Virus record (IMG/VR): IMGVR_UViG_3300008267_000189
Coordinates: 1-64,000 of that record
Source: a virus
Length of the DNA: 64,000 nt
Reading direction: 5' to 3' (one strand)
Shown: positions 527 through 38,317 of the stretch, in pieces
Layout: each line of letters opens with the position of its first letter
How positions within the stretch are numbered: the stretch's first letter is position 1
The notes under the pieces: generated by a model
Told to the model about the DNA's origin: nothing
Database searches by the model: none
What the model saw: only the letters and a program-made list of their open reading frames with translations
Program-made: the position numbers and the translations under genes

Positions 527-1921
527 CTAAGAAAGTTGACCGGTAATATTATCGATCAATACGTTTTTACGAGGCTGATAACCAGCAAGACATAGGAAAC
601 GGAAGTGAGCTTCAGGCAAACTAAGATCATTGATTGCCATTTTCAAACGAGAATACGGAGACAATTGATGAATTCCCCAAGTATTTGCTTGAATCAAGAA
701 ACCAGTCACTGACCCTGGACTGCGGAAGCCAAGATCCGTAAATACCGTAGATGCTCCACCAGCAGCTTTTACACGACCAACAAATTTGGCAGAAGCAGCA
801 GATCCACCAGCTTCAGAACGATAAACGTTAAAATATTTAGCACCATTATTAGTAATGGTTACAGTAATTTTATCGCCAGCAGCAGAAGTATGTGAAGCAG
901 CAGGAGAAGCAAGAGATTCTCCTCTTTCATTTACAGCTGTTACATAATAAGTATAAGCTCCGGCAGGAAGAACTGAATTAGCATCAGCAGGAGAAGCAAG
1001 AACTGGCGCAGCAGGAGCTGCAAGAGAACCAGAACGTGCACGAGCCGGTCTAGTTTTACCAGAAACAAATCTTGAAGCTTCTAAAGAAACTAAAGCAGAA
1101 GAAGTCCATTGTTGTCTTAGTTCAGCACCTGTTTTAGACTGAGCACTTCCGCTAAGAACAATTCTTTCTTTTGCATGAGCAATTTTGTTATATTGAGCAA
1201 GAGAAATAGGATCTAACACAAGCTTATCAGCAGAACCGTGATTCATAGCAGAACGAACTGCGGCATCTTCTATAGTAGACTGTGTAAGTGTACCATCAGC
1301 AGAAAGAACCACTGTTTGATCAGAGCCGTATTCGGCAAACATAAGATCTTGGGTATTAGCCATTGCGTCACTCATACGAATTTGAGCATCAACACCAACC
1401 ATATTTGGAACATCAGCAATAGAGCTAGGATCTCCAGTGAAAAAACCATCAGAAGAGAATGAAGCCTGACCTTGGAAAAGATCAATTTCAATATCACCAG
1501 AAAGTTTCGCAGCAGCATCAGAGGCAGCACGATCTTCAGCTTTTACACCGTCAAAAGCACCAATCATATTAGCAGCAATAGAAACACGACGCATTGTAGA
1601 ATAATAAGCCATTGGAACTACAGCACGTACATAGTTTGAAGTATCTTCTTCTCCAATACCACCTTCATACTGAGCAGATCCACCAAAAATACCGTAATCA
1701 AGTTGACGGTTAAATTGGATTAATTGAGATTTAGAATCTTTACTATCAAGCATTTTTTGAAGCTTAATATGAGAATCATCCCAAGTAACATTTTGCATAA
1801 CAGGAGAAAGATCTTCTACCTGTAATGCTGCACCTTGAGTAAGACTATCTGGAGTGGCATTGTAGCTGCCAACTTCTAGTGCCTTAACTAGTTGTTGTAA
1901 TTGTTCGACAGTGTTCGACAT
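527..1921 (-). CDS. Major capsid protein (HK97 fold) with FN3/Ig-like insertion
   Basis: This 464-residue protein is probably the main shell subunit. Its N-terminus (about residues 19-45, containing YNATPDSLT and ALQVEDLSPVM) and C-terminus (SPYSRLKMAINDL, then FLCLAGYQPRKNVL) follow the pattern of capsid proteins of SPO1/Twort-type myoviruses. Residues about 303-405 form a beta-rich immunoglobulin/FN3-like segment (AYTYYVTAVNERGESLAS, then KYFNVYRSEAGG) inserted before the C-terminal capsid strand, as in Twort-type phages. It follows the scaffold-like gene by 9 bases and has a purine-rich ribosome binding site (AGGAGG). A terminator directly follows. The fold assignment comes from remembered family patterns, not a search. 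Confidence 0.82.
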   Translation of the reverse strand: MSNTVEQLQQLVKALEVGSYNATPDSLTQGAALQVEDLSPVMQNVTWDDSHIKLQKMLDSKDSKSQLIQFNRQLDYGIFGGSAQYEGGIGEEDTSNYVRAVVPMAYYSTMRRVSIAANMIGAFDGVKAEDRAASDAAAKLSGDIEIDLFQGQASFSSDGFFTGDPSSIADVPNMVGVDAQIRMSDAMANTQDLMFAEYGSDQTVVLSADGTLTQSTIEDAAVRSAMNHGSADKLVLDPISLAQYNKIAHAKERIVLSGSAQSKTGAELRQQWTSSALVSLEASRFVSGKTRPARARSGSLAAPAAPVLASPADANSVLPAGAYTYYVTAVNERGESLASPAASHTSAAGDKITVTITNNGAKYFNVYRSEAGGSAASAKFVGRVKAAGGASTVFTDLGFRSPGSVTGFLIQANTWGIHQLSPYSRLKMAINDLSLPEAHFRFLCLAGYQPRKNVLIDNITGQLS

Positions 1922-1930
1922 GGATTCCTC

Positions 1931-2605
1931 CTATTTTGAAATTAAGTGTTTAATTTTTTCTACACTTCCGTTTTGTAAGTAAAAATTGTTTATAGCATCT
2001 CTATCAGACTTGGACAATGATTGAAAATCAAGAGCTTTTAATTTAGCAGTTACTTCGCCTTTTGACATTTCAGAAATATCAAAAACCTCTACTTCATTTT
2101 CTTCCGATTTAGCAATAAAACTAGTAGCTGTAATTGCTTTTTGAGTCGGAGCTTTTTTTGAAGAGAAAAGTTTGCTTACAAGATCATTTAAAGTTTCAAG
2201 ATTTTTTTTCAACTCTTTATTTTCTTGAGCCAGGGATTGTTCAGATTTTTTTACTGACATATCTCCACATTTCTCTATTTCTATTTCTACTTCTTGATCT
2301 TCTTTTTTATCGTCTTTTTTGTCTTCTTTTTTAGAATCTTTTTTTTCTTTTTCTTCCTTTTCTTCTTCTTTTTCTTCCTCAGATTTAGTCATCATGACTT
2401 TTTTAAGAGAAGAATAATGAGCTTCAATTTCATTTTTACTCATAGAAGCATAAAGATCGTCAATTGTTTCAAATTCTTCAGAACCAACCTCTGCCGGTTC
2501 TTCAACTATTTGATTTTTTTCGTTTTTTGTAATGCTTTCCAAGGTTCTTTCAAATTCCTGTTCTACTTGGAGGAGCATTTCATCAACTTGTGCTTTTGTA
2601 TACAT
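1931..2605 (-). CDS. Scaffold-like acidic/coiled-coil protein
   Basis: The 224-residue product is very rich in Glu and Lys. A strongly charged stretch lies around residues 75-115 and a coiled coil follows it, ending near the SSKKAPTQ linker. It has no cysteine-rich or enzymatic motif. Its place directly upstream of the major capsid gene in the same operon is the usual place for a head scaffold (core) protein, and charged helical proteins are typical there. Function is inferred from position and composition. The T-rich complement strand produces false open frames here. Confidence 0.55.
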   Translation of the reverse strand: MYTKAQVDEMLLQVEQEFERTLESITKNEKNQIVEEPAEVGSEEFETIDDLYASMSKNEIEAHYSSLKKVMMTKSEEEKEEEKEEKEKKDSKKEDKKDDKKEDQEVEIEIEKCGDMSVKKSEQSLAQENKELKKNLETLNDLVSKLFSSKKAPTQKAITATSFIAKSEENEVEVFDISEMSKGEVTAKLKALDFQSLSKSDRDAINNFYLQNGSVEKIKHLISK

Positions 2606-6687: not shown

Positions 6688-7226
6688 ATTTTATAATTTT
6701 TTTCTAGAATATCTAATATTTGATCTTTAATATCAAAAATTTTATCATCTTCATCAAATTTTATTAATTTAATATCAATGCCTTGAGATATTGAATAATT
6801 ATTTATGTTTTTAAAAAAATTATAAGAATCTAAAACACTAGAAGATTCAGGTATCTCTTTGAATCTGCCTGCAGAAAAAACCAAAGTTTCAGGCAATAAA
6901 AAAAAATGAACAGAACCATACTTATGGTTTATATCTTGCTCTTTTCTTAATAATTCTCTACAGTTATCATCTAAGGATAGTATACTTAATCCTTTTTTTA
7001 TATTGTCTTGAAACAAAGAAAGGATAGAGTTTTCTTTTAAAATAACGCAATTACTATTTTCTTCTAATAAAATATCCTGTAATTTCAATTTGTTGTCATC
7101 TATACCATTCATTTCTTTTAAATCAAATTTTTTATCTTTTAAATACTTACGGATTTCTCTGGCCACTGAGGTTTTGCCTGATTTGTCTATACCATCTATG
7201 TAAATACATCTTATTTTTCTTGACAT
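6684..7226 (-). CDS. Thymidylate-kinase-like P-loop kinase
   Basis: The 180-residue protein starts with IYIDGIDKSGKTS, a Walker A motif in the exact context of dTMP kinases (residues about 8-20). It then follows a nucleoside-monophosphate-kinase layout with a YGSVHFFLLPE strand in the middle. dTMP kinase makes dTDP from dTMP and would act after ThyX (62826) in dTTP synthesis. The canonical dTMP-kinase motif DRY/F is not evident, so the substrate is uncertain. The gene is reversed relative to its virion neighbours. It has its own extended -10 only 7 bases from the ATG. Confidence 0.68.
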   Translation of the reverse strand: MSRKIRCIYIDGIDKSGKTSVAREIRKYLKDKKFDLKEMNGIDDNKLKLQDILLEENSNCVILKENSILSLFQDNIKKGLSILSLDDNCRELLRKEQDINHKYGSVHFFLLPETLVFSAGRFKEIPESSSVLDSYNFFKNINNYSISQGIDIKLIKFDEDDKIFDIKDQILDILEKNYKI

Positions 7227-7233
7227 GTAATAT

Positions 7234-7242
7234 ATAATATCA
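7234..7242 (-). promoter_or_regulatory. Extended -10 TGATATTAT, leaderless start
   Basis: On the minus strand the sequence TATGATATTATATATTAC runs straight into the ATG of the kinase gene. The -10 ends 7 bases before the start codon, so transcription would begin at about the A of the ATG. There is no Shine-Dalgarno sequence. It overlaps the plus-strand late-type motif at 7241-7252. Confidence 0.55.
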
Positions 7243-7252
7243 TAATCTTTAA
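7241..7252 (+). promoter_or_regulatory. Late-type promoter motif CATAATCTTTAA
   Basis: This copy of the AATCTTTA motif lies 15 bases before the start at 7268, with a TAGGAG ribosome binding site between. It shares bases with the divergent kinase promoter on the other strand. Confidence 0.45.
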
Positions 7253-7267
7253 GACATAGGAGCGCCC

Positions 7268-7657
7268 ATGAAATTATCAGTTAAGTTCTTGAAAAATGTA
7301 GCAAATGTAAATACTTTTCAATATACATCTCAGTGGAATATCTCTGAAGGATCTTCTCAAATTTTATATTTTCAATTTGTTGATAAACTTAAAGATGATT
7401 TAAGATATATGAGTCAAGCAATTGTTATTGACGAAGTAGCGGTAACATTTTTAAATATAGATGAAGCTTCGGAAATTATAAAAATAGCGACACAAGTTTT
7501 CCCTGACGACAAATCAATCTGGTGTATTACATTAGCAAATGATGAAGTTCCAAATTCTGGAGCTGCAAAATTTTCTATAACAGAGGATGGACAAGAGCGC
7601 AGGTTCAGAGTAGAACAAGCTATTTCTGTTGATCTTCTTGATGCAGGGAGTTGTTAA
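7268..7657 (+). CDS. Virion-block protein of unknown function
   Basis: The 129-residue product is mixed alpha/beta with a beta-rich start (SVKFLKNVANVNTFQYTSQW) and no recognisable motif. It leads a block of neck/connector-like genes and has a TAGGAG ribosome binding site. Its stop overlaps the next start (TAATG). A small head-tail junction or tail protein is possible from context. Confidence 0.6.
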   Translation: MKLSVKFLKNVANVNTFQYTSQWNISEGSSQILYFQFVDKLKDDLRYMSQAIVIDEVAVTFLNIDEASEIIKIATQVFPDDKSIWCITLANDEVPNSGAAKFSITEDGQERRFRVEQAISVDLLDAGSC

Positions 7658-8487
7658 TGCCTTTTTTATCTGATCAAAACTACCCAAAAGATTATGGAAC
7701 AAAAGCCTATCCGGTCGGGGCTGAAGATAGTAGTGAAGTCTTAAAAAGAATAGAACCTATCCTAACGCCTGAAAAATTAGTCAATAGATATTTAAAAGGT
7801 ATAAATCTTTCTCAATATTCTAATGATGATTTAAAAGATATAATTGGAATTGCTGCTGATAAAACAGAGCTTTTAATAGGAACCACAGTCACTCCTGTAA
7901 AAAGAAAAGAAAAACATCCTTTTGATAGAAACCTATACCGAAGCTTCATCCACATAATGGCAAACTTTGGCCCGATTCTTCAAATTAATAAATTTTGTAT
8001 CAGAAGCTCGAACGATAAGAACATATTTGAAATACCTGCTGACTGGATTGATGCAGCTAGGTTTTATCAAAAACAAATAAATGTTATTCCTTTAACAGTT
8101 GTAGGAGCTACAGGCATCAGTCAAGGTCAGCCCACGGGCGCAGCCGGGCTAGCTTTTATTGCAGCAATGAACGGAGGGATTGACTGGGTTCCTTCTTACT
8201 GGGAAATCGAATATACAACAGGTGTGTGTACTAAAGAAGGACAGGTCCCATCTATCGTGAATGAATTGATTGGATGTCTTGCGGCCATTAATATTTTGGG
8301 TAATTTAGGAGCGCAAAATAAAAACACTTCTGTAAGCATAAGCCATGATGGTATTTCTCAGTCCAGCTCTAATCCAGGTCCAAACCTCTATCAGACAAGA
8401 ATTGCAGAATTAATGGCAGAAAGAGATCAAATGGTAAAGAAAATTAAAGGTGTATTTTATAATAAAAGATTTGTAACAAATATTTAA
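7657..8487 (+). CDS. Putative connector/neck structural protein
   Basis: I place the start at the ATG at 7657 because AGGGAG lies 6 bases upstream; an in-frame TTG at 7651 is less likely. The 276-residue product contains FEIPADWI, IDWVPSYWEIEYTTG and a late ISHDGISQSSSNPGPN segment. It ends in a helical region (LYQTRIAELMAERDQMVKKI). I recall this arrangement in conserved structural proteins of large myoviruses that lie near neck genes. The exact position in the virion is not established. Confidence 0.55.
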   Translation: MPFLSDQNYPKDYGTKAYPVGAEDSSEVLKRIEPILTPEKLVNRYLKGINLSQYSNDDLKDIIGIAADKTELLIGTTVTPVKRKEKHPFDRNLYRSFIHIMANFGPILQINKFCIRSSNDKNIFEIPADWIDAARFYQKQINVIPLTVVGATGISQGQPTGAAGLAFIAAMNGGIDWVPSYWEIEYTTGVCTKEGQVPSIVNELIGCLAAINILGNLGAQNKNTSVSISHDGISQSSSNPGPNLYQTRIAELMAERDQMVKKIKGVFYNKRFVTNI

Positions 8488-8496
8488 TGATATTAT
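8488..8496 (+). promoter_or_regulatory. Extended -10 TGATATTAT, leaderless start
   Basis: The element ends 7 bases before the ATG at 8503, with only T-rich sequence and no Shine-Dalgarno between. Transcription would start at or next to the start codon. Confidence 0.5.
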
Positions 8497-8502
8497 ATTT
8501 TT

Positions 8503-9984
8503 ATGTATAAAAAAATTATACAAGAGATTAAAAAGAATGAAAACAATAATGATTTAAGTTATTTAAATAATGTAAAACTTAACCCAGAACATGGCAAAAA
8601 GATAGCCCAAGCCTATCAGGACATGAAGCACGATCCTGACCATCCCGAAGTTCAAAAAGCATACTCAGCACTCATTGACGAGACAAAACAACAATTTAAT
8701 GATATGATGAATAAAGGATTGAAAATATCCCGCATTGAACCAGGAATGGAAAATCCTTATAAAAGTTCTAAAGAGTTACACAATGATGTTAAAAATAATA
8801 ACCACTTATGGTATTTTCCTACAGAATCGGGCTTTGGAGATAATGAACAATTAACAAAACACCCAATGTTACAGTCCACAGGTGTTAAACATGGCGATAA
8901 AGAATTATTAGCAAATGATATGTTTAGAATAGTTCACGATATAAACGGGCATCATTTAGGAGGAGAGTCAGGGTTTGGACCTACAGGCGAGCATAAAGCT
9001 TACCTCACACATAAAAAAATGTATTCGCCATTAGCGAGTAAGGCTCTTGCTTCAGAAACTTTAGGACAAAATTCTTGGGTTAATTTTGGGCCTCATGCAG
9101 AGCATAATCAAAAAAATCCAAACCAAACCGTTTATGCCGAACAAAAGGCAGGGCTATTACCGGAAGAAATAGTAAACGGAGATTGGCATAAAAACGAAAT
9201 CCAGAAAGGAGAATTAATGGAAATTTTAAAAAATTTTGCATTAACAAAATCTTATGAGTATTCGCAAAAATATCCAAAAATTTCTCAAAAAGATTTAAAG
9301 AAAAATTTTAACAAACTTCTCAGAAATGGAGTCGCATTACTAGGGCTGGTTCATGCTCATAAATACATGGATATGCCAAACCAATCCAATAATTCCAATA
9401 AATTAATCCCGGAAAGCAATATTTCTCAAGAATTTGAAAGAGATAGAAAATCATACTCTGATAAATATAATACCAATCAAGGTACAAATTTTTCAGATAA
9501 ACAAAAAAAAATAGATAATTTTTTAAAAACAACATCAATGATTGAGAGTTCTGGAGGCAAAAATTTAAAACATCCCAGAATTAAATACGGAATGCATGCC
9601 GGAGACAAAGCAGTGGGGCAATGGGCTTTGATGCCAAAAACTATTAAGGAATTAGCAGGAAGAATGGGTGATAATTCTGAAATAGCTCCTTATGCTAAAA
9701 TGGATAGTAAAAAAATATCACAGAATTTATCGCAGAATCCTGGTCACGAAAAACAGATAGCATCCTTTTTAGCAAATAAACTATATGACAAATTCAGTGG
9801 CGATGAAAACAAAATGGCATACGCTTGGAATCAGGGGCACAATATAAATCCTGATTCATTTAAAACAGACAGAAAAGATTATCTAAATCATGATTATGTA
9901 AAAAAATATAATGAATATAAAACTAACAACACCCCCAAACAGGAGATTTCTAGATCTATTGCAAATTTTGACAAAAATAAATAA
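8503..9984 (+). CDS. Polyvalent protein with C-terminal lytic-transglycosylase-like domain
   Basis: This 493-residue protein has two recognisable parts. Residues about 85-225 match a domain typical of phage polyvalent proteins: FRIVHDINGHH, then GFGPTGEHKAYLTHKKMYS, then ASETLGQNSWVNFGPH, then YAEQKAGLLPEE. That domain has conserved His/Asp/Glu residues that suggest an enzyme. Residues about 338-480 look like a soluble lytic transglycosylase: TTSMIESSGG with a candidate catalytic Glu, then GDKAVGQWALMPKTIKELA and AYAWNQG. Polyvalent proteins are thought to enter the cell with the genome. The lytic domain could help cross the cell wall during entry. Localisation is inferred. Confidence 0.72.
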   Translation: MYKKIIQEIKKNENNNDLSYLNNVKLNPEHGKKIAQAYQDMKHDPDHPEVQKAYSALIDETKQQFNDMMNKGLKISRIEPGMENPYKSSKELHNDVKNNNHLWYFPTESGFGDNEQLTKHPMLQSTGVKHGDKELLANDMFRIVHDINGHHLGGESGFGPTGEHKAYLTHKKMYSPLASKALASETLGQNSWVNFGPHAEHNQKNPNQTVYAEQKAGLLPEEIVNGDWHKNEIQKGELMEILKNFALTKSYEYSQKYPKISQKDLKKNFNKLLRNGVALLGLVHAHKYMDMPNQSNNSNKLIPESNISQEFERDRKSYSDKYNTNQGTNFSDKQKKIDNFLKTTSMIESSGGKNLKHPRIKYGMHAGDKAVGQWALMPKTIKELAGRMGDNSEIAPYAKMDSKKISQNLSQNPGHEKQIASFLANKLYDKFSGDENKMAYAWNQGHNINPDSFKTDRKDYLNHDYVKKYNEYKTNNTPKQEISRSIANFDKNK

Positions 9985-10847: not shown

Positions 10848-11720
10848 ATGGATAAATTAAAAATACCCTTTCCTCCCAACCCTGATATTGGAATCAATCT
10901 GGATTCTCAGGATGAGTTTATTAAAAATAGAGGGGTAAATCTTGAACATTATGTAGCAATACCATCTCCAATAGGATTAAAAGATAGAGGAGATTACAGA
11001 AGAACAGACCAATACGATTCTATTTCTTCAAATGGAATGATTTACAAAAAAGCCGGATGTTTTACTGGTGTTATTGTTTCTAACTCAAAAAGAAAAACAA
11101 CAGGAGAAGGTGGTATAATTGACCATTCTACTGCAAGACTTCTGTTGCCTAGATTTTATAACGATCAAAAAGAAATACATCTTGCCCCTGGAGATAGGAT
11201 TTTTATAAAAGACATAGATGTACTTGTGTCAAACTATCAAAGAATGCAATATGACCCGGGAAATTTTGATAGAGCGCAATTTCCTATAAAATGTGTTGAA
11301 CATTTAATAGACAGTCGAGGGTTAGAATACAAAGAAGGAGTACATTTTAAAATTCAGGATGGATATGTTGAATGGATTGACGGGAAAGACAATCCGGGAA
11401 TAGACCCCGATACCGGCAAGGGAAGAGTTTATTCAATAAGATATAAATACAATGCTCATTGGTATATAACCGAAATACCGAACGAAGTCCGAGTAGCGCA
11501 AACATTTGGATCTAATGGAGAAAAAACTGCAGAAAGAATGCAGTATTCTGCCATCATTCAAAGAGAATATGTTTATTATAATCAAAATAATGATATTAAT
11601 AAGGATTATGGAAAGGAAAAACTAATTAGAAATATAGAAGAACCAAAAGATCCTATCGATACCATTTATGAATACGAAGTAAAAGTCGATATGAACGATA
11701 TAGGAGAACAAGATGAATAA
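10848..11720 (+). CDS. Putative head-tail adaptor/neck structural protein
   Basis: The 290-residue product begins with the Pro-rich FPPNPDIGINLDS. It contains STARLLLPRFY, APGDRIFIKDIDVLVSNYQ, VYSIRYKYNAHWYI and EVRVAQTF, and ends in an AIIQREYVYY segment. This order of motifs is what I recall from a conserved structural protein of SPO1-like and other large myoviruses, often assigned to the head-tail junction. It starts 2 bases after the previous stop and overlaps the next gene by 8 bases. Confidence 0.6.
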   Translation: MDKLKIPFPPNPDIGINLDSQDEFIKNRGVNLEHYVAIPSPIGLKDRGDYRRTDQYDSISSNGMIYKKAGCFTGVIVSNSKRKTTGEGGIIDHSTARLLLPRFYNDQKEIHLAPGDRIFIKDIDVLVSNYQRMQYDPGNFDRAQFPIKCVEHLIDSRGLEYKEGVHFKIQDGYVEWIDGKDNPGIDPDTGKGRVYSIRYKYNAHWYITEIPNEVRVAQTFGSNGEKTAERMQYSAIIQREYVYYNQNNDINKDYGKEKLIRNIEEPKDPIDTIYEYEVKVDMNDIGEQDE

Positions 11721-12119: not shown

Positions 12120-12407
12120 ATGAGTTCTTCTAAAAAATTAGAGAATTTTCTAAAAAAATCAAAGAATGAGCAAAAAAAAGAGGCTCAAATAAAAAAGACA
12201 GAATGTATAAGCTGCGCAGATTGCGGTTTTAATTTATATGAAGGCGGAAAAAATTTAACATTATGCATTTGCTACGGCGAGGATTGGAATAAAAATATTA
12301 AAATTCAAAAGTCTGAAAACGCTATAAAAATGCAATTTCCTAAGACTATAGATCCAGAAAATATTGAGATGTTATTAAATACTTTAAAAAATATGAACAA
12401 GGAATAG
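12120..12407 (+). CDS. Small Cys-rich, probably zinc-binding protein
   Basis: The 95-residue protein has a lysine-rich N-terminus. A cysteine cluster follows (CISCADC and then LCICYG, residues about 29-51), spaced as in a zinc ribbon or knuckle. The C-terminus contains MQFPKTIDPENIEMLLNTL. It sits 2 bases before the polyvalent cyclase-like gene and may work with it. Metal binding is inferred from cysteine spacing. Confidence 0.55.
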   Translation: MSSSKKLENFLKKSKNEQKKEAQIKKTECISCADCGFNLYEGGKNLTLCICYGEDWNKNIKIQKSENAIKMQFPKTIDPENIEMLLNTLKNMNKE

Positions 12408-12409
12408 GT

Positions 12410-14203
12410 ATGAAAGAACAAATGACCTATGTAGCAATTGACGCTGACGATGTAGGAGAAAGTATCGGAGGAGCTGTGCTTTCTGATGATGCGAACAAAC
12501 TCTCAACAATATCGGGGAAAATAAATACTGGCGTACAGATCTTTGCCAAGTGGGCGGAATATAATGGCGGATCTATAATAAGCAGTGGTAGCGATGAAGC
12601 TATTTTTCAAGTACCTTTAACTAGTATTGAAGAGTTAGAAGATTTGAAAAATAAATACCAAAACCATACCGGCTTTTCAGTTTCAATTGGTATTGGAGAA
12701 AAAATTTCTGATGCTGCAAAAGCTTTAATTTATGCTAAAGTAAATGGCAAAAATCAGATAGTTGATTATTCTCCTGAGATAGAAGAAGTAATGAAACAAT
12801 CTATTACAGGTAATTTAGATAAAATAAAACCAGAACAAAAATTAGAAGGTGGAATAGGGGACGAAACAGAAGAATCAGACGTAGATGAAAATGAGTTCAA
12901 AACAGGTATTACAACTGAAAGAGAACATACTGAAGACGAGGATACAGCTGAAGAAATTGCTTTAGATCATCTTACAGAAGATCCTGAGTATTATTCTAAA
13001 CTTAAAGAAATGGAATCTAAAGACGAGCCAGATGAAGAATCAGATGAAGAATCAGATGAAGAATCAGATGAAGAATCAGATGAAGAATCAGATGAAGAAT
13101 CAGATGAAGAATCAGATGAAGAATCAGATGACTTGTCAAACTCAATAGCCATGGAAATGGAGCCTGATGAAGAATCAGACGAAATGGGTCAGCAAGACTT
13201 GGATATCGATGGTCGTCCAGATATCCAGGAGGAACATGGAAAAATAAATCCCGAGCAGGATGACATAGACAAAGATGGGGATGTTGAACATGAAGAAGCT
13301 ATGGCTGTAGATGCTAACGAAGAAGATAGCTATAACGATGAAAATGATTTTGAAGATGAATATTTAGAATCAGATGAAGAATCAGATGAAGAATCAGATG
13401 AAGAATCAGATGAAGAATCAGATGAAGAATCAGATGAAGAATCAGATGAAGAATCAGATGAAGAATCAGATGAAGAATCAGATGAAATGGATCAAGAAGA
13501 TCTTACTGATGAATCTTTAAAACAAGCTATATTTGATAGTTTACAAATTTTTAAACAAAACAAAGATATTTTAACAGCTCTTGCCACAGAAAATCCAGAT
13601 TTATATAATGCTCTTGTTGTTTCTTTACAATCAATGATAGAAATGGCAAAAGAACTTGGATATGGTGGGTATGAAGATGATTCAAACCAAGGGATGGATG
13701 AAGATTTAAATCCGAACGATTTTGAAGTATTTGATGAGGAGTCTTCGCCAGATAATGCTGAAATGTCACAAGAAGAACTTTCTCCAGAAGATTTTGAAAA
13801 AAATGAAACCTTTTATAAATTAATAAATAAAATTAATACTGCAAAAAAAACTCTTGAGTTAAAAAAGAAAGAAGATAAGAAAAAAATGCTTTTAAAATTA
13901 AAACAAAAATTGAATAAGTTTAAAAGCAAAAATTTTCAACCCGGAAAAGATAAATCTAAATTTAAAGACAAAAAAAAGAAGGTTCCAAAACCTAAAAAAG
14001 TAGAAGCAGCGTCATTTTGTTCTTCCTCTAATCAAAAAATGAAAACATCTGGAAAAGATTGTAGAGCAAATGAGGATAAAGATTCTCCTGTATGTGCTGC
14101 AAGGAAAAAAATGAATTGCCGTGGCAAGAATGCCGAAAAAGGTTCTGCTATTCAAAAATCTGAAAAATTAAAGAAATTTTTGGAGAAAAAAAGAAAAAAG
14201 TAA
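12410..14203 (+). CDS. Polyvalent protein with mCpol/GGDEF-like domain and DEES repeats
   Basis: Residues 1-120 look like a minimal palm polymerase/cyclase domain of the Cas10-GGDEF-mCpol group. There is an initial YVAIDADDVG strand with metal-binding-type Asp11/Asp13, and a GSIISSGSDEAIF hairpin in which GSDE (60-63) replaces GGDE/GGDD. Then comes FSVSIGIGEKISDAAKALIYAKVNG, typical of GGDEF domains. The middle is extremely acidic, with 8 and then 9 tandem DEES units. Residues about 370-410 are helical. The C-terminus is basic with a Cys motif (SFCSSSNQKMKTSGKDC, then CAARKKMNCRG). The family in cells makes cyclic or oligo-nucleotide signals. Placement in the virion block suggests delivery with the DNA. 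The 597-residue product ends at a TAA directly after a slippery A AAA AAG. Confidence 0.62.
   Translation: MKEQMTYVAIDADDVGESIGGAVLSDDANKLSTISGKINTGVQIFAKWAEYNGGSIISSGSDEAIFQVPLTSIEELEDLKNKYQNHTGFSVSIGIGEKISDAAKALIYAKVNGKNQIVDYSPEIEEVMKQSITGNLDKIKPEQKLEGGIGDETEESDVDENEFKTGITTEREHTEDEDTAEEIALDHLTEDPEYYSKLKEMESKDEPDEESDEESDEESDEESDEESDEESDEESDEESDDLSNSIAMEMEPDEESDEMGQQDLDIDGRPDIQEEHGKINPEQDDIDKDGDVEHEEAMAVDANEEDSYNDENDFEDEYLESDEESDEESDEESDEESDEESDEESDEESDEESDEESDEMDQEDLTDESLKQAIFDSLQIFKQNKDILTALATENPDLYNALVVSLQSMIEMAKELGYGGYEDDSNQGMDEDLNPNDFEVFDEESSPDNAEMSQEELSPEDFEKNETFYKLINKINTAKKTLELKKKEDKKKMLLKLKQKLNKFKSKNFQPGKDKSKFKDKKKKVPKPKKVEAASFCSSSNQKMKTSGKDCRANEDKDSPVCAARKKMNCRGKNAEKGSAIQKSEKLKKFLEKKRKK
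13031..13126 (+). repeat. Tandem 12-bp repeat, 8 copies (DEES)
   Basis: Eight essentially identical copies of GATGAAGAATCA encode DEES units inside the polyvalent cyclase-like gene. Identity at DNA level points to recent expansion or gene conversion with the second array at 13373. Confidence 0.95.
13373..13480 (+). repeat. Tandem 12-bp repeat, 9 copies (DEES)
   Basis: Nine copies of the same GATGAAGAATCA unit as at 13031, in the same reading frame. The two arrays are separated by about 245 bases of non-repetitive acidic coding sequence. Confidence 0.95.
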
Positions 14204-14241: not shown

Positions 14242-14457
14242 AAACAGACCACAAAACATATCTCTAAACCCCATCATCAAGATGGGACTGTTAAAGGATA
14301 TAAGATAAAAGATACAGATCCTTCAACAGGAAAGGCAAAATGGATTGACGGATCAAGGGGATTGGCCATGGACAATAGTGGGAATCCTGTAGCTCCTGAA
14401 GGGCAAAGTCCTGTGAAAGGAACTAAAAATAAACTTCCTCTTCCAGGTCTTGTATGA
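14200..14457 (+). CDS. C-terminal extension reached by -1 frameshift
   Basis: This frame is open from just after the slip site to the TGA at 14455-14457, which overlaps the next gene's ATG. It would add 85 residues to the 597-residue polyvalent protein, for 682 in total. It has no usable start: no ATG occurs before codon 51 of the stretch, and no ribosome binding site. The sequence looks like real protein (TSGGLPTKQTTKH, then KIKDTDPSTGKAKWIDGSRG, then a Pro/Gly-rich tail). Without it the 250-base interval 14204-14453 would be the largest non-coding gap in the virion block. Confidence 0.58.
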   Translation, partial: VTGSLDKTSGGLPTKQTTKHISKPHHQDGTVKGYKIKDTDPSTGKAKWIDGSRGLAMDNSGNPVAPEGQSPVKGTKNKLPLPGLV

Positions 14458-15218
14458 TTTTAATTGATATAGAAATAGAAGGAAATTTAGAACAAGATAT
14501 TGATAAAATAAAAAATAGCATTAGGGAAGATCTTAGACTTACAGTCAAGGCAATGGGTTCTAGTACATTAAAAAAAGCAGAAGAACTTGCTCAACAACAT
14601 CTTTCTCCTAAACTTGCCACTATGTATAAAGCGGCTTTAAAAATAGAACAATTATCAGAAGATACTGTAATTATCGAACTGGATGAAAAAGCGATCTGGA
14701 TAGAAAAAGGTCGTAAGGCAGGTTTTATGGAAGACCTTCTTAAATCAGGCACAAAAAAAGCTAAAGACGGTTCTAAATATAGAATAATACCTGTGGGAGA
14801 ATCGAAAAGATCTTCCCAACCAGCTTCAGTAGGAGAGAATCTTGTACCGGAAATAAAAACTTTTTTACAAAAAAAAGGCATCAGAACGGGAAAAAATAAT
14901 CTGGAATTGGATGATAACGGGAGTCCGAGGCTTGGTAAAATAAGTACTTTCAATATAAAAGATTTAAAAGATAAAAAACAATTTTCTGATAATATATCTA
15001 GAATAAGTGTTTTTCAAAATAAAAACCCTAAAACAGGCGGGGTTGAAAAAAGTATAACGGCTTTTAGAGTTATATCAGAAAAACATAGAGGAACAGGAAA
15101 ATGGGTCCATCCCGGAACTCCTCCTGTAAATATATTAGAAAAAGCTTTTAAATGGTCTGAACAATTGTGGGAAACAGAATTATTCCCCGCAATGAAGTTA
15201 AGATATGAAGGTAAATAA
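14454..15218 (+). CDS. Putative neck or tail-completion protein
   Basis: The 254-residue product has a helical N-terminal third. A segment IWIEKGRKAGFMEDLLKSG follows, and a C-terminal part with RGTGKWVHPGTP and KAFKWSEQLWETELFPAMK. This arrangement (EKG near the middle, WVHPG near the end) is typical of phage tail-completion or minor tail proteins of the HK97 gp10 type. It overlaps the preceding frame (ATGA) and the next gene (TAATG), placing it in a head-tail junction operon. Confidence 0.58.
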   Translation: MILIDIEIEGNLEQDIDKIKNSIREDLRLTVKAMGSSTLKKAEELAQQHLSPKLATMYKAALKIEQLSEDTVIIELDEKAIWIEKGRKAGFMEDLLKSGTKKAKDGSKYRIIPVGESKRSSQPASVGENLVPEIKTFLQKKGIRTGKNNLELDDNGSPRLGKISTFNIKDLKDKKQFSDNISRISVFQNKNPKTGGVEKSITAFRVISEKHRGTGKWVHPGTPPVNILEKAFKWSEQLWETELFPAMKLRYEGK

Positions 15219-16201
15219 TGTCAATATGGCAAGGTGATGTCTTTTTTAGACGAATTATAGAATTAATTTTAAGAGATATCAGACAGAACCCATGGCTGTT
15301 GGATGATATTCTTTCAGATTTTATTACAGATCCCATGCTTTCTGGAATATACGGACAAAAAGAAATTGAAAATGCAAAAAAATGGATTACAGAAAATGAA
15401 GTATCCGTTTTTTTACCACATAGAATGGATCTTGAAAAAATGCCCTGTATAACTATTGCTATAGGAAGCAATATGGAAGACAGGAGTCTTGCTAGAATGG
15501 GAGATATGACCCATCTAGTAGAAACTTTACAACCAACCCAGATAGGCAAGGTTGTTCCTTATATAATACCTCCTTTTTACTACACCTCTTACGATCAAGC
15601 AACAGGTTTTTTTGAAGTCCCCAGCTCAGTCGACTTGGTAATAATTCAACCTAATATGGCTGTTATAAATCCTCAAACTGGAGCCGGTTTTATTATTACT
15701 TCAAAAACTAATAATGGATTTTTTATTACCCCTGGTACTGCAATAAATTTTGAAGTTATAGCAGTAATTCCTGAATATCGAATATACAAAGCTAGAAGAG
15801 AAATTGCAACTTTTCAAGAAAATATCTCTATTGGATGCCACGTTCATGGTGACCCAAACGCCCTGCTATGGTTATATTCTGTAATGATGTACGGATTATT
15901 AAGATATAGAGAAGGGTTAATAGAAAGCAGAAATTTTCAAATATCAAATCTTACAACTACAGACATGATAAGGAATGATGCATTCCAGAGCTTTGGAGAA
16001 AACGTGTATAGTCGTTTTATAACCTTGACTGGTCAAGTAGAAAATACTTGGATTAAAGCTCCAAAGCGTATAATAGAAACAATTAATATTATAAACGGGA
16101 TAGATGCTGGGTTAATTATGATAAATAAAGATGGTGGGGAAGTTCCTGAAATTATTGATTCAGAAGAAGAGATATGGATATCGAAAACTGATCCAGAATA
16201 A
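15218..16201 (+). CDS. Putative tail terminator/neck structural protein
   Basis: The 327-residue protein has a helical start (FFRRIIELILRDIRQNPWLL), a central beta-rich region (DLVIIQPNMAVINPQTGAGF) and ALLWLYSVMMYGLLRYREGL near residue 230. I recall similar proteins in the connector region of large myoviruses. It is directly coupled to the tail-completion-like gene, which supports a joint role at the head-tail junction. The specific position is inferred. Confidence 0.55.
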   Translation: MSIWQGDVFFRRIIELILRDIRQNPWLLDDILSDFITDPMLSGIYGQKEIENAKKWITENEVSVFLPHRMDLEKMPCITIAIGSNMEDRSLARMGDMTHLVETLQPTQIGKVVPYIIPPFYYTSYDQATGFFEVPSSVDLVIIQPNMAVINPQTGAGFIITSKTNNGFFITPGTAINFEVIAVIPEYRIYKARREIATFQENISIGCHVHGDPNALLWLYSVMMYGLLRYREGLIESRNFQISNLTTTDMIRNDAFQSFGENVYSRFITLTGQVENTWIKAPKRIIETINIINGIDAGLIMINKDGGEVPEIIDSEEEIWISKTDPE

Positions 16202-16221: not shown

Positions 16222-16872
16222 ATGGATAATTATTTAAAAGAAAAAGCTGATTTATTATTAAAATCTCTTTATAAAAATGTAAATAAATTGGGACACAAAA
16301 AAGATGCCATTGAAGACGTATTAGATTCTAATACAACAGCAGAAATGAGTCCGGATGATATTCCTGCAGGAAGCTCTAGTGCTTTAAATAAATCTAAAAT
16401 GCAAAAAAAACAAAAAGTTATTGAAAAAACAAAAAATGTTCAAGATGTGAAAAAAAATGAAGAAATAGTTGAAAAACTTTTGAAAAATTTAGATGTAATT
16501 TCAAAAGCTTGTAAATCAAAAATGCAAAAAAGATGCTGGGAAGGTTATGAGTCGACTCCGGGTAAAAAGGCATATTCAGAAGGCTCTTGTCAACCTATCA
16601 AAAAAGAAGAAAAAGAGAAACCTTTTGTAGGATATAATAAAGAAAAGCACTCTAGAGAAGGTGGACTGAGCACAAAAGCCAGAGAAAAATACAATAAAGA
16701 ACACGGTTCAAACTTACAAGCGCCTGTATCTTCTAAAGAAGCCAAAAAATCACCTAAAAAAGCAGCCAGAAGAAAATCTTTTTGTGCGAGGATGTCAGGG
16801 ACAAAAGGAGCAACAAGCAAAGACGGTAAACTTACCCCAAAGGGTGCGGCGCTTAAAAGATGGGATTGTTAA
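16222..16872 (+). CDS. Basic Cys-motif polyvalent/virion protein
   Basis: The 216-residue protein has an acidic/neutral N-terminal half. Two basic modules follow. One is KRCWEGYESTPGKKAYSEGSC (residues about 94-114). The other is EGGLSTKAREKYNKEHGSN, leading to KSFCARMSG and ending KRWDC. The last module occurs in small phage structural or packaged proteins and carries paired cysteines that could bind zinc. A similar SFC...C motif ends the 12410 product. DNA binding inside the capsid is plausible but not shown. Confidence 0.6.
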   Translation: MDNYLKEKADLLLKSLYKNVNKLGHKKDAIEDVLDSNTTAEMSPDDIPAGSSSALNKSKMQKKQKVIEKTKNVQDVKKNEEIVEKLLKNLDVISKACKSKMQKRCWEGYESTPGKKAYSEGSCQPIKKEEKEKPFVGYNKEKHSREGGLSTKAREKYNKEHGSNLQAPVSSKEAKKSPKKAARRKSFCARMSGTKGATSKDGKLTPKGAALKRWDC

Positions 16873-19445: not shown

Positions 19446-21617
19446 ATGGCACAACGATTAACTACTAGCTTTGTAAATACCAACATCCCAGGTGCTTATC
19501 CAAGCGTGACGGTAAAATCAACCCCTGTAGGCATTTCAAGTACTGGTGATATTGTTATTATCGGAGAAGCCGAAGGCGGTGCTGATTTTACACAAGATCC
19601 ACTTAAAGATAACTTTTTTACTGCTACTCAGTTAACTAGAGTAAGAGCAAAATATTTAAAAGGCCCAATCGTCGATGCTATGGCTGCTCTTATTTCTCCA
19701 AGCAACGATACTAATATACAAGGATCAATCGGCAAAGTTTATATTGTTAAGACCAACGGTGGATCTAAAGCAAAAGCCAATGTTCTTGGCGGATTTGATA
19801 CGTATGGCATACTTAAAGATAAAAATTTTGGCGTTGATGGTAATAAGTATTTTTTTAAAATAACTCAAGCAGAAACCGAGGTTGCCCCTTCAATTACAGG
19901 TAATAGTTTAGCACCTTTTTCAGCCTCAAATTTTGATGACGTTTCTTTTAGTGTTAGATTAAACGGAGAAGCCATAACGACCATTAACTTGGAAGTCGGA
20001 TCTCATAACACTTTAGAAGATCTTGCAACTGAAATTAATTATAAACTCCCCACAGGATTAAGCTGTTCAGCAAATGTAGCTACTACATCGCTTGTTATAT
20101 TTGTACAAGCTGACGCTCAGGCAAATGCGGCGGGATATGGTAAATCTTTTGAATTAGTAGATTCAACTCCAGGTGATTTAGAGTATATTGGCTTCAGTGA
20201 AGAGCTTGTTGTCTCTTCTCAAGAACCAGAAATTCAACTCACTATAAACAGACAAGATACCAATACAAACGAATCGTTTATGATGGAAGCTCAGATAGCA
20301 CTTACTGTTGGATATGATGGAACTAGTGCTGTTCTTTCAATTTCTGATGGAGTTCTTATGACTACAGTAGTCGGAGGGACCGGTTCTAATCTTAGTATTA
20401 CATTAAGTGAATTTACAACCATGTCAGATCTTGCTGCTTTTATAAATTCTCAAGAAGGATACTCAGCATCGTCTGTGGCTTCTTCAAATAATCTCAGTCC
20501 TTTAAAGCTTGATGAAGTTTCGGCTGTTGGAATCGCCACTTCAGGAGGATTTGAAGCCGGGAGAATTAAAAGAGCCGCTCATAATTTTAAAACAAAAGTT
20601 GCAGAAAGTTCTGTTCTTGATTTTGAATCTCTGGTAGCAGCAGGTCTTCCTAGTGAAACAGTTACCTCTAAATTTCTTGGATCTGAAAGTGAAGAATATA
20701 AAGGGAAAAAAGGTGCTACTACCGCTGCTGATATTGCAAATGCTATTCCTGCTTTAGAGGGTATTAAAGTTAATTTTGTTATTCCTTTATTTTCTAGAGA
20801 TGCTTCTGAAGATATAGCAGACGGATTAACCGATTCAAGTTCTACTTATACAATCGATGCTATTAATGCTCTTGTGAAATCTCATGTTCTTGCCATGTCA
20901 ACTCCTAAAATGAAAAGGAACAGAATGGCAATGCTTAGTAAACAAGCCAGTTACTCAGCTGTAAAAGCTGCCGCAGCTTCTTTGTCTAATTTTAGAGCTA
21001 GTATGTTTTTTCAAAAAACAAGTCAAGTCAATTCTGTTGGGGATGTTGTAGAATATCAACCATGGCATACCGCTTGTGTTGCAACAGGTATGCAATCTGC
21101 AGGATTTAATAAATCTCTTACTAATAAATTTGCTAATGTTATTAGTTTTAAAGATCCTTCAGGGTTTGATTCTGGCAATCCAGGTGATGTTGAGGATGCA
21201 ATTGATGCAGGATTGTTCTTTATGCAACAAGAAACTGCAGGTAATAAATGGGTAGTCGATCAAACGACCTACGGATTTGATACAAATTTTGTATACAATT
21301 CATTACAAGCCATATATATGGCAGATGTTCTTGCGATTCAGCTTTCTGAATCTCTTGAAAAATTTGCAGTAGGTCAATCGCTTGCAGATGTTACTTCCGC
21401 CGGTATTATTGCTTTTATTTCTAAAAAAATGGAAGAATATAGAAAACTAAAAATAATTGGCGCTTCAGACGATGCTCCTTTGGGGTATAAAAATGTCAGC
21501 GTTGTTATAAACGGTCCTATCGCAGAAGTTAAACTCGAAGCTAAACTTGCTACGGCAATCTTGTTCATACCTATTGAACTAGAATTGAGCCAGATCCAGT
21601 CTAGTGCATCAGCATAA
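19446..21617 (+). CDS. Tail sheath protein
   Basis: The 723-residue protein is probably the contractile tail sheath subunit. It begins with NTNIPGAYPSVTVKSTPVGISSTG, then VIIGEAEGG, the usual N-terminal pattern of sheath proteins. Its length is near that of T4 gp18. The C-terminal half contains SHVLAMSTPKMKRNRMAML and a final VSVVINGPIAEVKLEAKL, also typical. An AAGGAG ribosome binding site precedes the ATG, and the tail tube gene follows 24 bases later, the standard sheath-tube order of myoviruses. The middle, residues about 150-350, is probably a surface insertion. Confidence 0.9.
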   Translation: MAQRLTTSFVNTNIPGAYPSVTVKSTPVGISSTGDIVIIGEAEGGADFTQDPLKDNFFTATQLTRVRAKYLKGPIVDAMAALISPSNDTNIQGSIGKVYIVKTNGGSKAKANVLGGFDTYGILKDKNFGVDGNKYFFKITQAETEVAPSITGNSLAPFSASNFDDVSFSVRLNGEAITTINLEVGSHNTLEDLATEINYKLPTGLSCSANVATTSLVIFVQADAQANAAGYGKSFELVDSTPGDLEYIGFSEELVVSSQEPEIQLTINRQDTNTNESFMMEAQIALTVGYDGTSAVLSISDGVLMTTVVGGTGSNLSITLSEFTTMSDLAAFINSQEGYSASSVASSNNLSPLKLDEVSAVGIATSGGFEAGRIKRAAHNFKTKVAESSVLDFESLVAAGLPSETVTSKFLGSESEEYKGKKGATTAADIANAIPALEGIKVNFVIPLFSRDASEDIADGLTDSSSTYTIDAINALVKSHVLAMSTPKMKRNRMAMLSKQASYSAVKAAAASLSNFRASMFFQKTSQVNSVGDVVEYQPWHTACVATGMQSAGFNKSLTNKFANVISFKDPSGFDSGNPGDVEDAIDAGLFFMQQETAGNKWVVDQTTYGFDTNFVYNSLQAIYMADVLAIQLSESLEKFAVGQSLADVTSAGIIAFISKKMEEYRKLKIIGASDDAPLGYKNVSVVINGPIAEVKLEAKLATAILFIPIELELSQIQSSASA

Positions 21618-21641: not shown

Positions 21642-22091
21642 ATGAGCGTAACAATGACAGGCGCACGAGCCAAGGTAAAGGTTAACGGACAATATGTAGG
21701 AGTTTTTGATTCCTGCTCATATGGAGGCCAGGTAGGTACAGAACCGATTCACACACTAGGTAGATATTCTCCTAATGAAATTTCTATCACAAGTTATGAA
21801 GCTGTTCAGGTACAATGTGGGGGATTTAGGCTTATTGATCAAGGAGTGCACGTTCTTCCTGCTGCTCCAAAATTGCAGGATCTTTTAAATTTTGAATCTA
21901 TTCAATTAGAAGTTGAAGATAGACAGTCAGGGAAAACTCTTGCTATTGTTAAAAATTGTGTCCCTTCTAATTGGAGTGAACAACAACAAGCAAAAGGTAC
22001 TACAAAATTTAGCATCACCTATATTGGAACTGTTCTCAGTGATGAATCTGGCGATCAAGACGAAAGCTCAGGAGCTTCTAGTCTTCCTTAA
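21642..22091 (+). CDS. Tail tube protein
   Basis: The 149-residue product has the layout of myovirus tail tube proteins. There is a beta-rich core (ARAKVKVNGQYVGVFDSCSY), then EPIHTLGRYSPNEISITSYEAV and a conserved end (KFSITYIGTVLSDESG). It directly follows the sheath gene and is followed by a strong terminator. The Ser/Glu-rich tail is probably disordered. Confidence 0.88.
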   Translation: MSVTMTGARAKVKVNGQYVGVFDSCSYGGQVGTEPIHTLGRYSPNEISITSYEAVQVQCGGFRLIDQGVHVLPAAPKLQDLLNFESIQLEVEDRQSGKTLAIVKNCVPSNWSEQQQAKGTTKFSITYIGTVLSDESGDQDESSGASSLP

Positions 22092-24938: not shown

Positions 24939-26723
24939 ATGACTGTAAAAAAAGTAAAAAGTCCTGCTAAACTTTATTGTTCAAATTCCTCAATACTAAG
25001 AAGAATGACATCTGAGACTATGGACGAGATATCCAATATTGTCGGATCTAGCTATGGTCCAGGAGGAAAAACTACGCTTATTGAAAGCGAGTATCCTGGA
25101 ATTCCTAATAAAAACACAAAAGATGGGGTAACAATTTTTAAATCATTGGGATCTCAAGATCCCTATAAACATTTAATTATTGAACAAACAAGAGATGCGG
25201 CCCAAAGAACAGCCAGCGAAGCAGGGGACGGAACGACTGCTACTACCATAATTTCTGCTCATCTTGTTAAATCTTTATTTAAATATTGCGAAGAAAACCC
25301 TAAAGAATCCCCTCAAAGAGCTACGAGAATTTTAGATAAAATAGTAAAAAAAGAACTTATTCCAGCCGTTAGAAAAGCTTCTATTCAAATCAATACAGAT
25401 AACCAACATCTTCTTGAAAAGGTTGCCAAAGTTTCTGCTAATGGCGATGAAGAAATGGCCGAAGCGGTTATGAAAGCTTTTGATATTGTAGGATTTGGAG
25501 AGTCTTCGCACGTTACAATCCAGGAACTTTCAGGTCCAGGTGGTTACGAGGTAGATCTTATTGAGGGATATCCTATAGCAATTGGTTTTGAAGAATCTAT
25601 CGGTAAATTTCATACTGCTTTTATAAATGATAAAGCTAATCAAAGATGTAAATTAGATAAACCTTTATTTCTTCTTTATGATGGAATAGTTAATGATTTA
25701 GTAACTTTCCTACCCTTAATAGATTCCTTAGGAAAAAAATATGTTCAAGAAGGGGATTCTGATTACTGCAATCTAGTTCTCGTAGCTCATGGATTTTCAG
25801 AAAATGTATTAACAACTCTTGCTTTTAATTTCTCAAATCCAACAACTTTAAATGTTGTTCCAATGGCAACTCCTATAACTAATCAAAAAAATTCTAGACT
25901 AGAATTTTTATATGATTTATCAGCTTTTGCAGGTGCTAAAATTTTTGATATGACCAACCAAGTATCGAAAGCCAGTCTGGAAGATTTAGGCGCAGGAATG
26001 GAATTGTTTGAATTTTACAGGTTTAGAGGGACGGTAGTAGGCCAACCAGACGAGATGGATATATCTGATCGTGCTGAAGAACTAGAGCAGCAACTTAAAA
26101 ATGCTGCAAGTATTTCTGAAAAACTTGATCTAGAAGAAAGGCTTGGAAAGTTAACAAATGGTATTGCAAAACTTAAAATATATGGGGCATCTAATGGTGA
26201 ACTTAAAGAAAGACATGATAGATGCGAAGATGCTGTTTGTGCCGTAAGAAGTGCTATTAAGCACGGCGCTCTTCCTGGAGGGTGTAGAGTTCTTGTTAAT
26301 TTAGCATTAAAATTAAACTCTGAATATGAAGAAAGTCATAGAGATTATAATTTAGTACAAACAGTTTTGATAGAAAGTCTTATGGAGCCTTTAAGAAAAC
26401 TTCTAGATAATGCAGGATATAATTCTGAAGAAATTCAAAAAATTATTACAGATTATTTTCTTGATACACAAAAAGTTTATGATATAGAAAATATGGAATT
26501 TGGAGATCCTGAGGATTTGGGAATTTTTGATGCTTCTCAAGCAGTTATTCAAGCACTAGAAAATAGCGTATCAATCGCCAGTGTAATGGGTAATTTAGGC
26601 GGAATTGTTTGTTCTCCAAGAGATAACCAGCTTGAATTACAGGCATGGAAAGAAGAGCAAGATTTTAGAAGAGCTGTAGATCATGCAGAAGAATTTATAA
26701 ACGAAGCAGATGTAAGACCATAG
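24939..26723 (+). CDS. groEL: GroEL-like chaperonin
   Basis: The 594-residue protein has the ATP-binding signatures of group I chaperonins: YGPGGKTT (39-46), NTKDGVTI (59-66) and AGDGTTATT (95-103). A late RCEDAVCAVRSAIKHGALPGGCR corresponds to the equatorial region with the catalytic Asp. The apical domain is divergent and the GGM-rich tail is absent. Phage chaperonins of this type fold virion or replication proteins. The terminase, portal and capsid genes nearby are obvious candidate clients. A GroES-like partner is proposed at 34737, not next to it. Confidence 0.92.
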   Translation: MTVKKVKSPAKLYCSNSSILRRMTSETMDEISNIVGSSYGPGGKTTLIESEYPGIPNKNTKDGVTIFKSLGSQDPYKHLIIEQTRDAAQRTASEAGDGTTATTIISAHLVKSLFKYCEENPKESPQRATRILDKIVKKELIPAVRKASIQINTDNQHLLEKVAKVSANGDEEMAEAVMKAFDIVGFGESSHVTIQELSGPGGYEVDLIEGYPIAIGFEESIGKFHTAFINDKANQRCKLDKPLFLLYDGIVNDLVTFLPLIDSLGKKYVQEGDSDYCNLVLVAHGFSENVLTTLAFNFSNPTTLNVVPMATPITNQKNSRLEFLYDLSAFAGAKIFDMTNQVSKASLEDLGAGMELFEFYRFRGTVVGQPDEMDISDRAEELEQQLKNAASISEKLDLEERLGKLTNGIAKLKIYGASNGELKERHDRCEDAVCAVRSAIKHGALPGGCRVLVNLALKLNSEYEESHRDYNLVQTVLIESLMEPLRKLLDNAGYNSEEIQKIITDYFLDTQKVYDIENMEFGDPEDLGIFDASQAVIQALENSVSIASVMGNLGGIVCSPRDNQLELQAWKEEQDFRRAVDHAEEFINEADVRP

Positions 26724-34740: not shown

Positions 34741-35051
34741 AAATATCTATAAATGGTAATTTAATTTTAAGACCGTATAATAAAACCAAGGAGTTACGAG
34801 CTACGGAAGTTGCTTCTGGATTTGTAATGACAGCCAATAAGATAGGGGTAGAGTCTTTAGAACTTTTAGTTGACGCAGCATTAAGTATAGGTAATAATAA
34901 TATAACTCTTCTTAAGGGTGCTAAGATTTATTTTAAGGAAGAAACGCTGCATACGCAAAAATGGCCTAGGCAAATTTTTGAATCTCAAGAATTCCCTGAT
35001 GGATTTGTCGTGGGAAATGTTGCTGACGTTCTATTTTTTGGACATGAATAA
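34737..35051 (+). CDS. Putative GroES-like co-chaperonin
   Basis: The 104-residue protein follows the co-chaperonin layout. It has an early strand NLILRPYNK, a possible mobile loop (ELRATEVASGFVMT), a central segment with LLVDAALSIG, then KGAKIYFKEETL (like VGDIVIFN of GroES), and finally DGFVVGNVADVLFF (like VLIMSESDILAIV). Similar divergent proteins occur in other large phages. It would cap the phage GroEL encoded about 10 kb upstream. The assignment rests on pattern only. Confidence 0.45.
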   Translation: MKISINGNLILRPYNKTKELRATEVASGFVMTANKIGVESLELLVDAALSIGNNNITLLKGAKIYFKEETLHTQKWPRQIFESQEFPDGFVVGNVADVLFFGHE

Positions 35052-38041: not shown

Positions 38042-38317
38042 ATGCCTAGAATATTGTATTTATGTTCAAAATGTAGCAGTGAATCTAAAAAATTTTATAG
38101 ATCTTCTATAGATATTTTGAATAAAATTGATTGTAAATGTGGAGGAGAGTTATTAAGACAGCTCTCCTCTCCTAATCAACGTAGTAAGATTGTTATTGAT
38201 AATGGCGTACAAGCTAAAGCAACCGAAATTGATAGAGAAATAGTTGAAATTATAGAAGATAGAGAAAAAGCAGATCTCAAAAAACGAGGAGATTCTGTAA
38301 TAGAGGAATTAAAATAG
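38042..38317 (+). CDS. Small zinc-ribbon protein
   Basis: The start is the ATG at 38042. The 91-residue product has two cysteine pairs (LYLCSKCSSE and IDCKCGGE) in zinc-ribbon spacing and a charged helical C-terminus. Such proteins often act in transcription or DNA metabolism. It overlaps the SbcC-like gene by one base. Confidence 0.6.
   Translation: MPRILYLCSKCSSESKKFYRSSIDILNKIDCKCGGELLRQLSSPNQRSKIVIDNGVQAKATEIDREIVEIIEDREKADLKKRGDSVIEELK

Follow-up and report, generated by a model that had tools for sequence, protein, structure and literature searches.

Why does a protein encoded among the head and tail genes of a phage begin with a palm domain of the kind that makes immune signals? The question arises from a 597-aa ORF in a 64,000-nucleotide stretch of viral DNA (IMG/VR record IMGVR_UViG_3300008267_000189, positions 1 to 64,000; hereafter the window). 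A first-pass annotation of the letters and translations had proposed that an acidic, repeat-rich, Cys-tailed protein encoded among virion genes is headed by a nucleotidyl-cyclase domain of the Cas10/GGDEF/mCpol palm family, and had suggested that the protein may be injected. The three motifs on which that proposal drew lie where it put them, at residues 10–14 (IDADD), 60–63 (GSDE) and 92–113 (SIGIG...AKVNG).

Within this broad family the domain belongs specifically to mCpol (minimal CRISPR polymerase). The Pfam mCpol profile (PF18182) matches residues 7–120 over its full length (1–114 of 114) with 67.7 bits (E = 1.4e-18; curated cut-off 26.4 bits), and scored on its own the domain reaches 72.9 bits (E = 3.6e-20). 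A phmmer search of PDB sequences gave convincing matches to two mCpol proteins only, 9nwn (E = 1.3e-10) and 9mnr (E = 3.4e-10), the latter being the Panoptes OptS of Klebsiella (KpOptS). Structure prediction, which the annotation had proposed as a check, points the same way. The AlphaFold2 model of the domain, built from a 33-row alignment, has a mean pLDDT of 93.9. OptS is its best match in Foldseek (TM 0.80–0.88 on target length) and ranks first in VIA-align, with a Z of 17.5 and an rmsd of 1.7 Å over 118 residues (32% identity), followed by GGDEF domains (Z 13.6 and below) and by Y-family polymerase or Cas10 palms (13 and below). The window domain is a genuine mCpol, nearer to OptS than to Cas10 or GGDEF.

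The two neighbouring families were rejected on several grounds. With GGDEF diguanylate cyclases the domain shares the palm fold, a GGDE-type hairpin and the AKxxGK helix; however, the structural score is lower, PF00990 has no match in the ORF or anywhere in the window record, and a GdpP-type GGDEF match of the ORF falls under its Pfam cut-off. With the Cas10/Csm1/Cmr2 palms of type III CRISPR it shares the palm fold and a weak Cas10-Cmr2_palm2 match, at 15.7 bits for the whole ORF and 20.9 bits (E = 0.00042) for the isolated domain against a cut-off of 27. Unlike Cas10, which has two palms and csm/cmr partner genes, the phage protein has a single palm, no HD, Zn or crRNA complex, and virion genes for neighbours, and its best alignment is to stand-alone mCpol.

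Table 1. Features of the mCpol gene and of the head-tail genes in the window (positions are those of the window).
Feature	Position	Strand	Basis or remark
Complete gene, 597 aa: mCpol, acidic linker, helical module, basic/Cys tail	12410..14203	+	ORF
mCpol palm domain, residues 1–120	12410..12769	+	PF18182, phmmer, AlphaFold2, Foldseek/VIA-align
First metal motif, D11-A12-D13	12440..12448	+	Alignments; D11 = KpOptS D6
Second metal motif, G60-S61-D62-E63	12587..12598	+	Alignments; D62 = KpOptS D57
DUF5661 match in linker, residues 158–204	12881..13021	+	E = 2.5e-13
First acidic SDEE array, 12-bp unit, 8.6 copies, perfect	13029..13131	+	TRF
Second acidic SDEE array, 12-bp unit, 10.1 copies, perfect	13366..13486	+	TRF
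Conserved module, residues 370–418	13517..13663	+	Helical by sequence pattern
Basic tail with Cys	14018..14119	+	Sequence
K-S-E of hydrophobic-x-K-S-E, residues 583–585	14156..14164	+	Putative prohead-protease or core-binding site
Neck/connector-type virion structural protein	10848..11720	+	phrog_1004
Zinc-ribbon-like Cys-pattern gene	12120..12407	+	Directly upstream of mCpol gene
phrog_16819 protein	14454..15218	+	Directly downstream of mCpol gene
Conserved connector/tail-terminator-like protein	15218..16201	+	"gp15-like" by position only
Tail sheath	19446..21617	+	Orthologue of annotated Mx1 sheath
Tail tube-like protein	21642..22091	+	phrog_985
Major capsid protein	527..1921	-	phrog_752, E = 3.1e-46
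Acidic scaffold/prohead-core-like protein, three KSE motifs	1931..2605	-	Adjoins capsid gene

KpOptS binds its metals through D6 and D57 (PMC12657218) and contacts the base through S30 and N34 of the neighbouring protomer (PMC12657218, PMC12657230). All four residues are identical in the window protein (D11, D62, S35 and N39, respectively, in the phmmer alignment). The hairpin reads GSDE rather than GGDE in the window, and that of KpOptS is likewise not GGDE. Window residue K110 aligns with the lysine in the SKSNGK segment of OptS; we presume that it serves the triphosphate, a role carried over from GGDEF enzymes. As far as alignment can tell, the active site of the window domain looks complete.

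Downstream of the mCpol domain the protein is built as the first-pass annotation described it, with an acidic, repeat-rich stretch encoded by the two SDEE arrays and a Cys-bearing tail. The DUF5661 match in the linker also occurs in a relative (L005). A module of ~45 residues, helical by sequence pattern, is present in all 61 mCpol proteins of the phage group, joined to the mCpol domain by a linker that ranges from ~15 to more than 450 residues; the C-terminal tails vary (basic and Cys-bearing, Cys-rich, or none). A similar Cys-bearing tail is found on a DUF6321 protein (phrog_10346/4689) of the same operon, at 16222–16872 in the window. We also considered a polyvalent protein. Polyvalent injected proteins (PMC5512222) resemble the mCpol protein as cargo encoded in virion modules; they are multidomain, whereas the mCpol protein has one enzyme domain. 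Only mCpol and DUF5661 score above cut-off in the window protein, with no polyvalent marker domains, and this candidate was rejected.

The location among virion genes was also borne out, with a phrog_1004 gene upstream and a putative Neck1-type gene, the sheath and the tube-like phrog_985 gene downstream. The Neck1 assignment concerns the phrog_16819 gene, whose L005 relative has weak matches to HK97-gp10 and to phrog_5 ("tail completion or Neck1"). The window sheath has a Pfam match under cut-off (E = 0.0013). The gene order g184, neck, zinc-ribbon gene, mCpol, phrog_16819, gp15-like, sheath, tube is kept among relatives. In most relatives the zinc-ribbon-like gene encodes ~290–330 aa; in the window, and in the relatives nearest to it, the product is only 95 aa long and lacks the N-terminal part. 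In one relative (L004:6505-7312) the neck ORF lies in two overlapping frames (222 and 67 aa), by a frameshift or an assembly error.

A direct search of viral contigs with the window protein gave five close relatives, and tblastn against phage records gave one distant match, Myxococcus phage Mx1 (protein WNM70340.1), with gene order preserved. The neck and gp15-like proteins, used as independent baits, gave ~70 further loci. Among the distinct operons spanning the site, an mCpol-headed gene lies between the zinc-ribbon-like and phrog_16819 genes in 51 of 52. The sole exception (L077) has lost the gene and carries unrelated genes in the slot, namely a small heat-shock-like protein, a helicase-like gene and a nucleotide-kinase-like gene (L077:2226-5073). 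A search in which mCpol sequences were the sole queries gave 41 viral loci, 40 of which have at least two operon markers in the fetched stretch; the remaining one (L118) nonetheless has phrog_16819 downstream. Among 84,980 prokaryote genomes the mCpol query matched a single contig, from a Myxococcota MAG, with the same operon and probably itself a phage contig, and a neck-protein search of prokaryote genome contigs found no prophage or host copies. Independent Pfam scoring placed 18 of 20 tested records over the mCpol cut-off and left Mx1 and L042 under it. The phages form a myovirus group that includes Mx1, and the association of mCpol with their head-tail operon is old and near-universal. 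A free-standing Panoptes system was rejected, with virion neighbours throughout and no adjoining effector gene.

We tentatively favour, at somewhat less than an even chance, the reading that the protein is a cyclase made late, probably packaged and probably active, which its helical module anchors to the particle and whose cyclic dinucleotide would act on the host. A counter-defence gene would not usually be near-universal or keep a fixed place in an operon, features that fit a role in morphogenesis. The main rival to the packaged-cyclase reading is structural: the mCpol palm would be a dimerising or nucleotide-holding block of the prohead core or connector, any nucleotide chemistry would be vestigial or serve to switch assembly, and the protein would not target host signalling. 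We consider this possible and give it a smaller share of our confidence. The fixed position of the gene in nearly every operon speaks for it, as does the sharing of one linker and helical-module layout by active-looking and inactive members; the operon that lacks the gene entirely speaks against it.

Conservation of the active site bears directly on this choice. All 61 distinct domains compared have D13, G94 and G96; Asp stands at position 62 in 56 of them and at position 11 in 53, Lys at position 110 in 57 and Ser at position 35 in 52. Both metal Asp residues are kept in 52 of the 61, and the median pairwise identity of those 52 is 37%. Clustering them at 70% identity left 33 clusters; D11 and D62 define this set and are invariant in it by construction, whereas K110 and S35, which played no part in the definition, are Lys in 33 of 33 and Ser in 29 of 33 clusters, respectively. 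A purely structural role needs neither the two metal Asp residues nor K110 and S35, and their persistence at such divergence counts against it. The position of KpOptS N34 (window N39) is variable, most often Asp (14 of 33 clusters) and Asn in 7 of 33, so the base preference of the phage family may differ from that of OptS. Among close relatives, dN/dS is ~0.035–0.04 in the mCpol domain versus 0.10–0.16 in the rest of the protein, with synonymous sites near saturation; the mCpol domain is under purifying selection.

Some members depart from this pattern. Four domains, all in one clade (support 100/95), carry D11N. In five others, that of Mx1 among them, the site is lost; these fall together on one side of a branch (96/92) that holds when the trait columns are removed (SH-aLRT 91). 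That the dead clade is derived is the simpler reading and not a proven one, the rooting of the tree being not fixed. The site-lost L079 domain keeps the fold (model pLDDT 94.8, Z 17.2 to OptS), a point in favour of the structural alternative. The Mx1 clade and the four D11N domains suggest that catalysis is dispensable in some lineages.

A link to the virus particle is suggested by a short motif, usually with a hydrophobic residue two positions before K-S-E. In the mCpol proteins KSE occurs 48 times, versus 9–22 for the other five permutations of the three residues and a shuffle mean of 22.6 (0 of 1000 shuffles reached the observed count). The bias is strongest in the acidic scaffold-like proteins of six phages, including that of the window (1931–2605, minus strand), with 17 copies versus 0–3 for permutations and a shuffle mean of 1.5. 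It extends to the proteins encoded between the gp15-like and sheath genes (130 versus 21–40) and to the zinc-ribbon gene (45 versus 4–16). Few copies or none occur in the folded proteins (neck, gp15-like, sheath and tube), and KSE is not enriched in the remaining window genes. The window operon alone contains 4 copies versus 0–5 for permutations, which is not significant, and the signal appears only across relatives; the window mCpol protein has one KSE only, near its C-terminus.

For the prohead proteases of T4, SPN3US and phiKZ the cleavage site follows a Glu, in L/I-X-E, A-X-E and S-X-E contexts (PMC5694885, PMC9026906). From the distribution of the motif we infer that K-S-E is a protease site or a core-docking site, which would place the mCpol protein in the prohead core set. 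That the motif is common to the scaffold-like protein suggests that the mCpol protein enters the prohead and is processed by the protease; KSE could instead be a binding motif and not a cleavage site. The capsid N-termini of the window and its relatives share a GNYNAxPSxLxQGxALQVEDLSPVM-type stretch, possibly cut after the Glu of LQVE/MQIE. The window also encodes, distant from the capsid gene (37060–38037), a ClpP/head-maturation-protease-like protein with an apparent N-terminal signal peptide. A likeness can be proposed to Alt and the internal proteins of T4, which are targeted to the core, cut after Glu by the prohead protease and delivered with the DNA (PMC9026906); unlike those proteins, to which no sequence relation was seen, the phage mCpol gene lies by the neck and sheath genes and is nearly universal.

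Other genes of the group touch on the same themes. Just upstream of its neck genes, Mx1 encodes a 1479-aa GNAT-ART-PolyVal-NUDIX protein and a PI3/4-kinase/HipA-like protein (L007:2397-6836 and 6844-8703), both probably injected cargo; polyvalent proteins of the GNAT-ART-PolyVal-NUDIX class are predicted to be injected (PMC5512222), and this is a genuine example in the Mx1 operon. A GGDEF domain separate from mCpol occurs in 7 related virus records tested, Mx1 included. The GGDEF loci (L125:17173-17904, Mx1 WNM70324.1; L128–L133; L138–L141) belong to the head module of part of the phage group, and in the loci examined the domain is either encoded beside capsid/protease-like genes or fused to very large protease-like proteins (1264–1437 aa) there. 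The GGDEF gene was rejected as a stand-in for dead mCpol, since it co-occurs with intact mCpol too. Elsewhere the window encodes GroEL, an SbcD/SbcC pair, ribonucleotide reductase and DNA polymerase III alpha (24939–26723, 34918–36015, 38317–40359, 42900–45622 and 50097–53720 for the set).

The activity, product, packaging, delivery and target that we infer for the phage protein, read as a packaged cyclase, would fit together as follows. Two mCpol domains would pair, and the dimer would link two NTPs, one or both of them most likely ATP, to give a cyclic dinucleotide in the manner of OptS. The long, disordered acidic linker would tether the domain to the helical module, through which the protein probably attaches to the prohead core or connector. 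The prohead protease probably processes it at hydrophobic-x-K-S-E sites. The protein would then probably be carried into the next host, and the enzyme or its product may interfere with nucleotide-based immune or second-messenger signalling. Natural targets would be a Panoptes-type effector that is kept silent, or a CBASS or type III receptor that is jammed. The Panoptes effector stays silent as long as the OptS product is present, and a cell that loses this product dies (PMC12657230). A second source of it, supplied by the phage, would therefore blunt the system; the Panoptes authors predict that a phage answer ("anti-anti-anti-defence") exists. The fully specified version, in which particle-borne mCpol makes the host's immune cyclic dinucleotide or an antagonist at entry, satisfies or jams Panoptes/CBASS-type sensing, and has become a dead structural part in a side lineage, would be a candidate for that answer; we regard it as rather doubtful.

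An active cyclase made late and left unpackaged would act on the current host, for example by keeping an OptE-like effector off until lysis or by altering c-di-nucleotide physiology. The conservation of the active site would suit such an enzyme, virion operons are expected to be late, and OptS works without an activator (PMC12657230). The universal tether to the linker and helical module and the motif held in common with the scaffold-like protein both point to the particle instead, and we think this alternative unlikely. It is highly improbable that the phage carries a Panoptes-like defence for superinfection exclusion, complete with an effector: the synthase domain is of the OptS family, but no 2TM-beta, CARF-2TM, SAVED or HEPN partner was recognised beside the mCpol gene, and in every operon seen virion genes make up the conserved neighbourhood.

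Set against known systems, the phage domain is most like Panoptes OptS (PDB 9mnr, 9pd0, 9nwn), with which it shares the fold, both metal Asp residues, the base-contact Ser and the Lys of the AKxxGK helix. OptS is a free-standing host enzyme of ~120 aa with an effector gene adjacent, and bacterial mCpol genes in general sit with effectors (PMC12657218); phage mCpol, unlike OptS, is fused to a linker and helical module and encoded in a head-tail operon without an effector. The open-access literature, outside which most subscription papers and preprints lie, gave no paper that treats Mx1 or an mCpol of phage virions. The enzyme family itself is known; in the literature searched we did not find its fixed place in a phage head-tail operon, its invariant fusion to a helical module, or its split into active-looking and dead members.

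In the literature searched, mCpol is described as an enzyme of bacterial and archaeal defence linked to effector genes. In dozens of diverged phages it now proves to be a conserved part of the head-tail module; they include the isolated phage Mx1, in which the site is dead. If mCpol is not active or not delivered, an enzyme of immune signalling would have been recruited as a component of the virion, and its active-looking and dead lineages could be compared. If it is active and delivered, the phage would be supplying an immune second messenger, the reverse of its removal by Acb1, Acb2 and Tad1. Judging from the residues kept, most copies of the domain look catalytically intact, and the virus may make or mimic its host's own immune signal.
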